A stretch of 64,000 nucleotides of DNA from Clostridium sp. (GTDB lineage Bacteria; Bacillota; Clostridia; Lachnospirales; Lachnospiraceae). The position numbers and the translations under genes are program-made. The stretch is from contig JAMPFF010000004.1 of the NCBI GenBank assembly GCA_023664605.1, forward strand, positions 47,461 through 111,460. The letters are read 5' to 3'. A model generated the notes under the pieces. That model was given only the letters and a program-made list of their open reading frames with translations, searched no databases and was not told the DNA's origin. The first letter of the stretch is position 1; each line of letters starts with the position of its first letter. Below, one piece after another: positions 51,300-55,894 of the stretch.

Positions 51300-51327
51300 A
51301 TATTTGATGGATAATTGTTTATTATCT
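51300..51327. repeat. Left 28-bp inverted repeat of the AT-rich island
   Basis: Begins ATATTTGATGGATAATTG and ends TTATTATCT. It is the exact reverse complement of 55685-55712. The copies bound a 4.4-kb AT-rich segment containing the STAND ATPase and glycosyltransferase genes. Confidence 0.9.
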
Positions 51328-51446
51328 GTTGAAAACTAGGTATTAGGTTCTATTTACTGAGTTATTCTTAAAGATAATTGAAGACTATTCATAAGTAAAA
51401 TAACAAATACTGGATATCTAATATTAAATAAGCAAGGAAACTTCAT

Positions 51447-54400
51447 ATGAAACTAAAAATAGAATGGGAAAAAATAAAAAATGGGTTTTCAGGGTTTGAA
51501 AATCTGGCATGTAAATATGTTGAAATGAATTTTCCCAATCCAACATGGACACCAACTAATCCAACTCGGGATGGTAATAAAGATGCAGTTGCTGTTTTTT
51601 TGGGATATAAAGAAAACGAATCATCTATGGAAAAATGGTGGATGGAAGCCAAATACTCCACATCTACGGATGTTTTAAGCCGTTATCGTTTAGATGCGAC
51701 AATTGTAAGCGCTATTTTAGAAAAAAATGTAACTAAAGTAATTTTTGTTACCAATGTTATTATAAATACTAAAATTATTAATGATATTCGGAATGCTTTA
51801 TACAATTCTATTCAATGTGATGATGTTTCTTTCTGCACTAAATACTCTTTGGAATATTGGCTATCTAACAATATTAATATTTATACAGATTTTTTTAATG
51901 TTTCTACAGATATTACTTCTATAGATATAGAATGTCCTGATTTATTTATAATGTCCGAAGTGGAATACTATTCAGAAATCAGTAATATTCTTACCTTTCG
52001 TGAACCGTTAAGGGAATTACACACTGATGAAAAATATTTTGGTTATTTTGAAGTTTTTTCTTCTAAAGCCAGAACACTTACTCTTAAACCTCATAAGAAA
52101 ATAAAAGGGATTACTGTTATTGATAATAATATTTCTTTATTACCAGGAGAAAATCCTGTAAAATTCTCATTTTACATCAATGGATTTGATTTTAATGAAA
52201 GTAAATCTTCACCTATTTTTGTTTTAGGTAATATTGAAATTCCGTCAGCTCGATATATAATTCCAGTAAAAAAAGACAAATTTACATTTGAATTATTTGC
52301 ACAAAAAAAAATGATTCAATCCTTAGAAAGCAAATATGAAAAATTTATAAGTGATAAAACATATAGTTTTAACTTTATTGAGGGAGTATCTGGTAGTGGT
52401 AAAAGTTATGTATTAGAGAATTTCTTAAAAAAGATTATTTTATCTACTACAGAAGTATTTTATGCCGAATTTACATATTCACCTCGTAATAATAATGAGT
52501 TATTATTGCATTTGCTGTTATTTATTTTATTTCCTTTTCTTAATCCGTCCGACATAGATAGTAATTACTTAAAGGAAGTTCAACATAATTTTGTGGGTTA
52601 TCCAATTATAGATTTAATTTCTCATAAACAAGATTTTGATAAGCTTGCTCAGATTATGTCTAATTATCATATTAATGATTGTATTTTACCTATAAAGATA
52701 AATATTCACGAACGTATTATAATTTTAGATGATTTGCAAAAACTCACAAAATATGAAGCCAATTTTTTATCTACTATTATTGCTGATTTACAAAGACATA
52801 ATGTACCAGTTTTTGCGGTTCTAAGTTCCCAGCCATCTTTTTATACACAAAAGTCTTTTAAAAATTTAATAGAGCATTGTGTAATAGAACATTACAATTA
52901 TTCTATTGGATTAAATGATATTTTTCATGCACTTCCTGATAATGGAAATAATAGTGTCTACTTAAATAATGAGATATCATATACAATACAATTTAATGTT
53001 GTTGAAATTTTCTTATTCTCTAAATATATTGTAGATAATGATATTACTATAAATAACATTCATGATTTTATAAAAGTTTGTAAGATATTTCAAAGAACAT
53101 CTATATTAGAATTATATATACTTAAGCAATTTGAAGCTTTTTTTAATGTATATCCTCAGTGTAGAAATACTTGCGACTCTATTTATTGGGCAAGTGAACC
53201 CAGAAAAGTTGATTTTTATGATAATAACGAATTAAGATTGTTATTATCGTATGGTTTTGTAAAATATAATTTTGATTCGCGTTTAGTACCAATACATGAT
53301 ATTTATAAATTTTATTATTGTAAGCATTTTAAACTAACTTTTTTTAATAAAAATGAATATAGAGAAGATAGTTTAGAAATAATTAAATATAGATTAGAGT
53401 ATGAAATAGAACGTAAACTTTTATTAAAAGAAGCTAATAAAATTATAGATTTATCAAATAAACAAAAATTTTATTCAGTTTCCTTTATATTGCAAGATAT
53501 TTTTGAAACTTCCCTCAAAGAAAATTTAAAGAATCGTTTAGATGAAGTAACATATTATAAACTTTACTTTGCGTATGCACTATCTGCAACTCATCAAAGC
53601 ATTGAAAAGACAGGATATGATATTTTTGCAGAACTAGGTGATGAAATAAGAAATATAAATATACCAGAAATTCTAGACTTATCTATCAGCGTTGATTGGG
53701 ATTTAGCTATTGGGGATTATGAGCGTTTGAGATATCAGCAAGCACTTTTTCGATTAAAAACAATTATATTGTCATTAATGAAATTAATAAAAATTAGTAA
53801 TAAATCAGATGATTTAAAACAATTTTCAAAATATTATGATGTATTAATGTTAGATACCCTTATTCGTGCAAATAGAGAAAAACCACGGACATATAATATT
53901 TACTTACAAAGAATTTCGCTGATGGAAAAATATGGATTTATTTATAGAAGCAAAAGTTTTCAAGTTCGTTTTGCCTTAACTTTATGTACACAAGATATAG
54001 AGCAAAGTTTAGAGATATTATCAACGTGTAGCGAGTATTTTCAGAAAGAATATGGTATAGAAGAAAAATATTATTTATGGGCAAAATACCATTTTAACTA
54101 TTTTTCTATGATATATAATCAAAAGCGAGAACTTCTTGATGAAGTGATAAAATATCATAATAATTTAAAAAAAGATTTTTCCTTAAATTATAGACAACGA
54201 ATAAATGGTTTGGCTTCATATTTCTATTATATTGGAGACATAACAAATGGCAATAAGTATATACTATTAGAAGCTTCATTTGATAATGAGCTACCCCTAC
54301 GACAAATTGCTTTTCATTATGAAACCGTTGCATTACATGAAATTTTGATTAATAATGTTGAAGATGCTAAACAAGCTTTGCAACAGACCATTGACTTATT

Positions 54401-54545
54401 TAATGAGTTGCCTTCTTATCAGCAAATTGCAATTCATAATTTACACTTATTACAGCAAGTTTCAACTATACCTATTATAAAGTACTGGTTTGGAGGTAGC
54501 TTGTCTGATGAAATTTATTACATAGATAGTCGCTGTTCTTGGTAA
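51447..54545 (+). CDS. Nuclease-STAND NTPase-TPR protein, Avs-like defence candidate
   Basis: A 1032-residue cytoplasmic protein, very AT-rich compared with the core. The N-terminus (about 1-120) resembles an Mrr-like PD-(D/E)XK nuclease: GFENLACKYVEMNF, Asp in GNKDAVAVFLG and the ExK pair in WWMEAKYS. A beta-rich linker follows. The STAND-type P-loop ATPase has Walker A EGVSGSGKSYVLENF (about 311-325) and Walker B RIIILDDLQKL (about 423-433). The last 500 residues are helical and TPR-like, the usual sensor region. This effector-switch-sensor order is that of Avs antiviral proteins, but the gene was not matched to a named Avs type. SD AAGGAAAC. Confidence 0.8.
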   Translation: MKLKIEWEKIKNGFSGFENLACKYVEMNFPNPTWTPTNPTRDGNKDAVAVFLGYKENESSMEKWWMEAKYSTSTDVLSRYRLDATIVSAILEKNVTKVIFVTNVIINTKIINDIRNALYNSIQCDDVSFCTKYSLEYWLSNNINIYTDFFNVSTDITSIDIECPDLFIMSEVEYYSEISNILTFREPLRELHTDEKYFGYFEVFSSKARTLTLKPHKKIKGITVIDNNISLLPGENPVKFSFYINGFDFNESKSSPIFVLGNIEIPSARYIIPVKKDKFTFELFAQKKMIQSLESKYEKFISDKTYSFNFIEGVSGSGKSYVLENFLKKIILSTTEVFYAEFTYSPRNNNELLLHLLLFILFPFLNPSDIDSNYLKEVQHNFVGYPIIDLISHKQDFDKLAQIMSNYHINDCILPIKINIHERIIILDDLQKLTKYEANFLSTIIADLQRHNVPVFAVLSSQPSFYTQKSFKNLIEHCVIEHYNYSIGLNDIFHALPDNGNNSVYLNNEISYTIQFNVVEIFLFSKYIVDNDITINNIHDFIKVCKIFQRTSILELYILKQFEAFFNVYPQCRNTCDSIYWASEPRKVDFYDNNELRLLLSYGFVKYNFDSRLVPIHDIYKFYYCKHFKLTFFNKNEYREDSLEIIKYRLEYEIERKLLLKEANKIIDLSNKQKFYSVSFILQDIFETSLKENLKNRLDEVTYYKLYFAYALSATHQSIEKTGYDIFAELGDEIRNINIPEILDLSISVDWDLAIGDYERLRYQQALFRLKTIILSLMKLIKISNKSDDLKQFSKYYDVLMLDTLIRANREKPRTYNIYLQRISLMEKYGFIYRSKSFQVRFALTLCTQDIEQSLEILSTCSEYFQKEYGIEEKYYLWAKYHFNYFSMIYNQKRELLDEVIKYHNNLKKDFSLNYRQRINGLASYFYYIGDITNGNKYILLEASFDNELPLRQIAFHYETVALHEILINNVEDAKQALQQTIDLFNELPSYQQIAIHNLHLLQQVSTIPIIKYWFGGSLSDEIYYIDSRCSW

Positions 54546-54570: not shown

Positions 54571-55557
54571 CTATTTTAATGTTGTGTCAGATATATATGG
54601 TTGTATATGTTTTCTAATTTCATCAGCATTAGCATATTCAAAATAATCTTCTAAAGATACTAATTCCTGCATTGCTAGTATTGCTTTTTTTAAATATACT
54701 TTTTTCATATCATCATCATTAACAAATTCAAATATTTGTTTTATCACAAGGTCTAATGATTTTTCACACAATTTATAATATTGAAATCTATATATCTCAT
54801 ATTTATTAGCATTTTCTAAATATAATCGTATTATAAGCATACTTTTTTTGAAATCATCTATATGTCTTTCATTAAAAGACTGAATGGCCGAGTTTTTACG
54901 GCGATAATGTCTATAACACACATCTGGAATACAAATTATTTTTTTTGCATAAAGGAAAGTATAAATAGAAAATATTTTCCCTTGATAAGAAATATTTTCT
55001 TCAAAAGATGCAGATATAGTATTTAGAAATTCTTTACGAAATACTTTATTTGTACAATAAAATGGTATTGTTATTCCCATATCATACTGTTGCAATAAAA
55101 TTTTGAAAGCTATATCTGGACTAAGCGAATAATATTGACTATATCTACAGATATAATAAGGTATATCTATAGGATTATCATATTCCCTTTTTATAGAGAC
55201 TACTCCTATATCACTGCTATATTGTTCCATAGCATTATATACTTTTTCATACATATTTAATTCAACCCAATCATCACTATCACAAAAAGCAATATATTTG
55301 CCATGAGCAATTTTTAAACCTTTATTACGTGCACCACCAGCACCTGAATGTTTTTCATTTTTCAGAAATAAAACATTTGAATATTGTGAATAGTATTTTT
55401 GAACTTCATCAAGTGATTCTGTAGAGGCATCATCAATAATAATAATTTCAATAGATTTAATTGTTTGATTAATCAATGAATCTATGCATTTATATAAATA
55501 TTTTGCAGTATTGTATGTTGGTACTATAACGCTAATATCATATTCAAGCTTATTCAT
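54571..55557 (-). CDS. Family 2 glycosyltransferase
   Basis: About 328 residues; ATG 55557 (MNKLEYDISVIVP) follows GGAGAGGAAC. The GT-A fold has VIVPTYNTAKYLYKCIDSL, the nucleotide-binding Asp in IDDAST, the GAGGARNKGL motif and the DSDDW metal-binding DxD. It transfers a sugar to a wall or capsule polymer or to a protein. Same AT-rich composition as the STAND gene and convergent with it. There is no polysaccharide cluster nearby. Confidence 0.92.
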   Translation of the reverse strand: MNKLEYDISVIVPTYNTAKYLYKCIDSLINQTIKSIEIIIIDDASTESLDEVQKYYSQYSNVLFLKNEKHSGAGGARNKGLKIAHGKYIAFCDSDDWVELNMYEKVYNAMEQYSSDIGVVSIKREYDNPIDIPYYICRYSQYYSLSPDIAFKILLQQYDMGITIPFYCTNKVFRKEFLNTISASFEENISYQGKIFSIYTFLYAKKIICIPDVCYRHYRRKNSAIQSFNERHIDDFKKSMLIIRLYLENANKYEIYRFQYYKLCEKSLDLVIKQIFEFVNDDDMKKVYLKKAILAMQELVSLEDYFEYANADEIRKHIQPYISDTTLK

Positions 55558-55684
55558 ATATAAGTTCCTCTCCAGTATAATAATCTTTGGTATTAGTAAT
55601 ATATTTAAAAATAATTTAAACACTAAACTACTTGCTTATAAATAATTTAGCGAATAATAACTAATAATCAATCCAGTTTCCGTT

Positions 55685-55712
55685 AGATAATAAACAATTA
55701 TCCATCAAATAT
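55685..55712. repeat. Right 28-bp inverted repeat of the AT-rich island
   Basis: Exact reverse complement of 51300-51327. The 387-bp gap 55558-55944 otherwise holds AT-rich non-coding DNA and a terminator; no gene is seen. Confidence 0.9.
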
Positions 55713-55866: not shown

Positions 55867-55894
55867 AGACGTATGGTTTTTATACCATACGCCT
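55867..55894 (-). terminator. Terminator of the C45 hydrolase gene
   Basis: On the minus strand GGCGTATGG pairs with CCATACGTC and is followed by TTTTTT. It lies about 50 bp past the stop of the C45 gene. Confidence 0.8.

Follow-up and report, generated by a model that had tools for sequence, protein, structure and literature searches.

A candidate nuclease-STAND defence gene and a convergent glycosyltransferase gene within a probably invertible and exchangeable cassette of a Lachnospiraceae bacterium

Avs (AVAST) proteins carry an N-terminal effector nuclease, a central STAND-type P-loop ATPase and a long helical C-terminus in about 1000 amino acids (aa). A protein with the same order of regions and a comparable length is encoded in a 64,000-nucleotide stretch of Clostridium sp. 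(Lachnospiraceae; contig JAMPFF010000004.1, positions 47,461 to 111,460), and this whole stretch is called the window here. The gene lies tail to tail with a GT2 glycosyltransferase gene inside one inverted repeat, and we consider it rather likely that the segment 51300-55712 forms a two-strand cassette, bounded by specific recombination sites, which can be inverted and exchanged and probably serves defence. The window protein differs from the Avs proteins (e.g. Avs1-5; for Avs5, see PMC12931631) in having a beta-rich linker at about residues 160-280, recognized by reading the sequence, and a conserved tail ending at W1032; its gene also shares a recombination cassette with a GT2 gene that converges on it. 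Genomes, contigs and loci are designated below by G, C and L numbers, G000 being the genome of the window.

Several described recombining segments resemble the cassette. With invertons, the phase-variation switches of tyrosine recombinases, the cassette family shares inverted repeats with palindromic core sites, a linked tyrosine recombinase and, in a relative, both orientations in one assembly; unlike them, each of these cassettes encloses a pair of convergent genes or operons of about 2-6 kb with defence-type cargo, which are exchanged between species. The dif or pdif modules of Acinetobacter are also gene modules shuffled between bounding Xer-type recombination sites (PMC13141974, PMC6449649), whereas the cassettes here are chromosomal, with another recombinase, two-strand defence-type cargo and a core sequence of their own. 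DNA inversion within a defence locus also occurs in hsdS of type I restriction systems, which is named in a survey of invertible loci (PMC5903667). However, hsdS recombination alters restriction specificity, while here whole genes on opposite strands change place. According to PMC12529663, no recombinase had been reported to take part in anti-phage defence before PinQ, which does so by inverting a prophage segment. We did not find a description of the cassette family, or of invertible STAND, Thoeris or SIR2 cassettes, among the papers listed in searches of the open PMC literature, a scope outside which most subscription papers and preprints fall. In Thoeris, the ThsA (SIR2-STALD) and TIR proteins are normally both needed and act together. 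Two sister cassettes (L094 and one on contig C29 of G000) hold ThsA-like and TIR genes, which are convergent on a site-bounded segment; the cassette of the window differs in its nuclease-STAND and GT2 cargo.

The ends of the segment were exact. A 38-nt inverted repeat bounds precisely the sensor gene and the GT2 gene, which are separated by 25 bp; its arms match at 34 of 38 positions overall and at 28 of 28 in a perfect core, and no match was obtained in 100 shuffles. The 25-base site of the window occurred in G000 only as this pair when up to 3 mismatches were allowed. The GC content of the unit is 25.4%, compared with 43.2% in the rest of the window. The initial annotation, made from the letters of the window, had placed the gene in an island; this setting was right, but the annotation overlooked that the exact ends are an inverted-repeat pair. 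The features are listed in Table 1.

Table 1. Features of the cassette in the window (positions in the window) and cargo of other site-bounded, recombinase-adjacent cassettes (by locus; opposing partners separated by "vs")
Position or locus	Strand	Feature	Basis
51300..51337	+	Left inverted-repeat arm; core site GGATAAT-TGTTT-ATTATCT, proposed tyrosine-recombinase site	Pairs with 55675-55712
51447..54545	+	Nuclease-STAND-helical candidate defence protein, 1032 aa, ATG start	Open reading frame, family alignment
51645..51653	+	E67-A68-K69, ExK motif of predicted N-terminal PD-(D/E)xK-type nuclease (with E18, D42)	Alignment
52383..52406	+	Walker A GVSGSGKS, residues 313-320	G313, G316, G318, K319 invariant 16/16
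52716..52733	+	Walker B region IIILDD, residues 424-429	D428 invariant 16/16
54571..55623	-	GT2 glycosyltransferase, 350 aa as listed (ATG start likelier at 55557)	PF00535 E=3e-36
55675..55712	-	Right inverted-repeat arm, identical core site	Repeat pairing; G034 homology resumes inside arm at 55695
L005		Window protein's family	
L093, L096		SIR2-type STAND vs GT2/ATP-grasp/kinase/methyltransferase	
L094		ThsA vs TIR	
L112 267-3068		Two convergent proteins (562, 352 aa)	No Pfam or PADLOC match at E ≤ 0.01
L117		SHMT-like vs ATPase	Weak ATPase_2 match
L122		GT4 vs AAA/TPR protein	Nuclease motif by eye
L134		ATP-grasp vs 774-aa protein	P-loop by eye

The window protein was compared with its relatives in an alignment (A2) of 16 family members over their whole length. 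E67, A68 and K69 were invariant in all 16 members and E18, D42, N44 and D46 nearly so, a pattern which we take to be that of a PD-(D/E)xK nuclease of the Mrr type. The Walker A and Walker B residues were likewise invariant (Table 1). Pfam gave solely AAA-type matches on the window protein, all under the curated cut-offs; at E ≤ 0.1, AAA_22 matched all 16 members, AAA_16 matched 14 and nSTAND_NTPase5 matched 4. No Pfam model matched the nuclease and TPR-like regions of the window protein at E ≤ 1. The conserved E18, D42, ExK and Walker residues support the order of nuclease, P-loop and helical region given in the initial annotation, but no domain model or structure confirmed its nuclease or TPR region. 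The conserved residues suggest an N-terminal nuclease of the PD-(D/E)xK type and the look of the sequence suggests the long TPR-like or helical C-terminus. At the level of sequence, this putative nuclease, the STAND-like P-loop ATPase between them and the C-terminus follow one another as in Avs. The conserved tail (residues 1020-1032 of the window protein in alignment A2), with D1027 and W1032 nearly invariant, closes nearly all members.

PADLOC includes Avs models, and none of the 16 members matched one at E ≤ 0.1; the sole repeated weak match in PADLOC was mad8 on the P-loop, in 11 of the 16. A profile search of the PDB at E ≤ 10 returned 90 matches, and the best 60 were generic P-loop proteins with E of 0.11 or worse, with no Avs structure or other STAND defence structure among these 60. 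Both searches left the assignment of the window protein to Avs in the initial annotation unsupported.

A search of the genus gave a match in 5 of 77 genomes, one of them a fragment, and a scan of genome contigs found 17 loci, or 18 with the window. Because the units of L027 and L028 are 99.98% identical, the 18 loci contain 17 distinct units. The hosts include Lachnospiraceae, Clostridia, Erysipelotrichales, Desulfosporosinus hippei and Paenibacillus athensensis. At 17 of the 18 loci a GT2 gene, or an operon with one, converges on the sensor gene, the exception (L037) being truncated; PF00535 was found in all 16 scanned loci, L027 being left unscanned as a duplicate. The stop codons of the convergent genes are 0-51 bp apart in 17 loci. 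A perfect inverted repeat of at least 17 bp spans the sensor gene at 15 of the 18 loci, and 54 control spans of similar size, drawn from 10 loci, had repeats of at most 16 bp. The shortest bounding repeat (17 bp, L034) barely exceeds this maximum, and part of the repeat length in L023, L024 and L030 may be assembly-made. The 438-bp repeat of L030 represents junctions built into one scaffold, and its true left-right pair matches at 35 of 40 positions, with 21 identical in a row. The three loci lacking a bounding repeat are L033, whose single core site is at a contig end, L035, where the contig stops at the gene ends, and L037.

In wider samples, G000 was the only genome of 398 from the phylum with a match at E ≤ 1e-10 (two candidates scored per genome). 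Matches at E ≤ 1e-3 were present in 15 of 392 genomes of the order sample, full-length only in G000 and G319 and short, mostly to the P-loop, in the other 13. No relatives of the window protein were found in viral contigs, plasmids or phages at the limits used. An ordinary single-gene Avs-like sensor nuclease, with the glycosyltransferase as a chance neighbour, would be consistent with the domain order and the conserved nuclease and Walker residues; however, the recurring convergent GT2 partner and the bounding repeats contradict it, as does the missing Avs model match, and we regard it as very improbable. The "single-gene" label of the initial annotation is wrong in view of the convergent GT2 gene.

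Cassettes with different cargo have been exchanged at the same bounding sites. G034, a sister species, has the flanks of the window at 91-94% identity and a different cassette at exactly the window's locus, in which an 805-aa ATPase_2/TPR protein is convergent with an ATP-grasp enzyme and a 73/73 inverted repeat bounds both. The outer half-site of G034 is identical to that of the window letter for letter. This supports the horizontal spread that had been proposed from the window alone. A methyltransferase gene was observed in G034 just outside the left site (L115 6602-7276). The site of the window was also found in G006, where two copies that differ from it at 2 and 3 positions enclose isoprenoid-type cargo; this cargo (L013 6131-10837) consists of a polyprenyl synthetase, an FAD-dependent oxidoreductase and two membrane-type proteins, one on the opposite strand. 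Different cargo at one locus in G000 and G034, and the same site sequence around unrelated cargo in G006, would be expected if the inverted sites served only for the acquisition and exchange of two-gene modules, as in the Acinetobacter dif modules. Promoters within the arms or close to them would then drive both genes, and inversion would be a by-product of no regulatory meaning. We hold this to be a serious possibility, somewhat short of an even chance, and return to it below.

The other site-bounded cassettes with an adjacent recombinase (Table 1) share a common plan, in which a protein of sensor or NADase type is encoded opposite, in most of them, a modifying enzyme on the other strand. In L094 and L139, the ThsA model matched at E=1e-59 and 8e-51, respectively, and SIR2_2, STALD and TIR_2 domains were present. 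The TIR protein of L139 matched no ThsB model at E ≤ 0.01, and that of L094 matched at E=6e-12, behind PDC-S66. The L122 protein aligned with the window protein at a BLASTP E of 0.15, and only the nuclease motifs lined up. The two proteins of L112 are a candidate new defence pair.

Evidence for inversion came from assembly data, not from read counts. L030, the record of contig G319:C37 with a STAND/GT relative, contains all four junctions, the left flank and the recombinase flank each being joined to both the radical-SAM end and the GT end. Matching junction pairs are identical at 60 of 60 positions outside and 54 of 54 inside the unit, and the shared 40-bp site matches at 35-39 of 40. This contig, with two N gaps, is a scaffold into which both orientations were built. 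In G000 itself, a gene for a ThsA-like SIR2-STALD protein, convergent with a TIR gene, closes contig C29 (L139 12337-14486; the start of C19 is L062 1-1027), and the SIR2 end of this cassette adjoins the far flank on C29 but the recombinase flank on C19. The SIR2 and TIR ends are distinguished at three positions, of which two are the final two bases of C19; all three agree with the SIR2 end on C19. Hence, on the basis of three letters close to contig ends, the ThsA/TIR cassette of G000 is probably present in the assembly in both orientations. The short contigs L023 and L024, which end at the repeats, were not used as proof of inversion. In them the site closes, on the inner side, a longer stretch of identity, which could be due to a repeat or to a single flank having been joined to both ends.

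The repeat arms carry the motif RGATAAY-N5-RTTATCY or a close form, some (e.g. L026 and L027/28) deviating at the outer letters. The 5-base spacer is equal in both arms of a locus, and 20 different spacers occurred over 23 loci (3 of 253 pairs alike); the spacers were typed by hand, and cassettes found through their recombinase, but not the STAND loci, had been selected for equal spacers. A tyrosine recombinase gene is near 6 of the 10 well-flanked STAND loci: L025 (where two frames share it), L026, L028 (about 1.6 kb away), L029, L030 and L036. None is adjacent at the window, L022, L032 and L038, but G000, G032 and G039 carry one elsewhere. The recombinase family was found in 44 of 77 genomes of the genus at E ≤ 1e-60 (46 genes), and the gene on G000:C19 matched PF00589 at E=9e-44. 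The catalytic-type residues R155, K179, H248, R251, H274 and Y283 were invariant in 13 aligned members. Contig ends within 250 bp of the recombinase were on the cassette side in 15 of 44 genes and on the other side in 1 of 44, where 0.35 was expected per side (G026:C109 and G045:C33, of the 46 genes, were left out). Repeats or strain mixtures could also cause these breaks. Ten recombinase-adjacent units combined a partner gene with a clear ATPase or STAND gene; it was the partner that lay next to the recombinase in eight (L025, L026, L028, L029, L036, L093, L096 and L122) and the ATPase in two (L117 and L134), a count which omits L030, L094 and L112 and is too small to call an orientation bias.

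Two further arrangements were observed beside recombinase genes. In G110 (L109 8880-10451), the recombinase is directly beside a gene which we take to be SRAP-like, and in G038 a STAND/GT unit lies between the same two genes (L005 2894-9967); the G110 arrangement is likely the empty site of such a unit. In G033, a short open reading frame by a recombinase and a core site (L111 10540-10824) resembles by eye the start of an Mrr-type nuclease gene and is possibly a decayed cassette.

These observations suggest a mechanism for the cassette. An XerC/D-like tyrosine recombinase, such as that of G000 with its catalytic-type residues intact, would act on the RGATAAY-N5-RTTATCY sites in both arms and invert the segment between them. 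Both orientations are assembled in two relatives (probably so in the second), and we infer that the copy in the window inverts as well. Orientation would most likely set which strand faces transcription from outside, that of the sensor or that of an enzyme modifying the surface or a small molecule. If the STAND protein behaves as Avs-type proteins do, it would bind a phage component, oligomerize with ATP and cut DNA through its N-terminal nuclease, and the glycosyltransferase would most likely decorate a surface glycan and alter phage adsorption; the defence activity of the window's cassette is predicted in this way. We tentatively propose, at clearly less than even confidence, that the cassettes are genetic elements of a new class, that a dedicated tyrosine recombinase keeps them in Firmicutes as interchangeable, two-faced immune cassettes, and that by flipping each cell picks either an intracellular suicide-type sensor (STAND nuclease or SIR2-STAND) or an enzyme which modifies the surface or a metabolite and stops phage earlier. 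This would be an either/or immune switch at the level of DNA and a form of bet-hedging in the population.

Several results favour such a switch over cassettes that are merely mobile. Besides the two orientations in L030 and probably G000, contig breaks accumulate at the recombinase-side site, and the tail-to-tail genes leave little room for a terminator between them. In the Paenibacillus cassette and the ThsA/TIR cassette of G000, both genes have their ribosome site and their start codon within the arms. One leader thus serves either gene, an arrangement suited to transcription from outside. Since the arm is about 11-60 bp from the start codon in many loci, there is little room for promoters inside the cassette.

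Other results weigh against the invertible cassette or its role as a switch. No tyrosine recombinase lies beside the unit of the window. The strict site pair beside the recombinase was incomplete or absent in 16 of 20 and 17 of 20 loci of two sets, in some because the contig ends there; 8 of all 42 recombinase loci examined (20 + 20 + L062 + L005) had a complete strict pair, and among the other 34 several end at a contig end and others (e.g. L097, L098 and L102-L106) have no strict site nearby. A flipped copy was sought between the near-identical L027 and L028, and both had the same orientation. In a promoter scan of 14 units, the recombinase side was not richer in promoter-like sites and no consistent one-sided promoter was found, which would also fit cassettes that are only mobile. 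For nine recombinase-adjacent units the far side scored higher in six and equal in three, the control being single-base shuffles, which is a weak one; promoter-like sites in the flanks of the window were not clearly above shuffles. One terminator-like hairpin (55867-55894) is located outside the unit of the window, and TAGACA-N17-TATAAT was seen by eye on the recombinase flank of L030. By eye, L029 has a hairpin with a T-run between recombinase and unit. Strict either/or expression is further weakened because the Thoeris pair, both members of which are normally needed, is on opposite strands, and this layout too would agree with mobility alone.

The cooperation of the two Thoeris proteins, and the fact that otherwise unrelated cargoes repeatedly pair a sensor ATPase with a modifying enzyme, could also mean that each cassette is one joint system. 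The GT group (GT2, ATP-grasp, kinase, methyltransferase, radical SAM) would then make or modify a molecule or surface polymer guarded by the STAND protein, and inversion would turn the whole system up or down. However, the genes are mutually antisense, the chemistry of the partner varies widely and no link connects the enzyme product with the sensor; hence we consider a joint system unlikely, while giving it some weight.

The genes of a defence island are usually taken one by one, as independent entries. For the cassettes described here, comparison reveals where they end, which site motif and recombinase go with them, that both orientations occur and that cargo is exchanged. These comparative data make the switching and trading of immune genes directly testable, and they suggest that some bacteria can do either. 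The recombinase and its site pair also provide a search key, which has already yielded ThsA/TIR, SIR2-NACHT, several STAND-like ATPases and one protein pair without a family match, all of them candidates for defence cargo. If expression depends on orientation, part of a population could keep costly sensors off, which would help to explain how such proteins are tolerated.

One neighbouring arrangement was observed at L032 (7121-9931), where SIR2 and HerA genes, both strong PADLOC matches, point toward the STAND gene and stop 17 bp short of the left repeat that bounds the STAND/GT unit.

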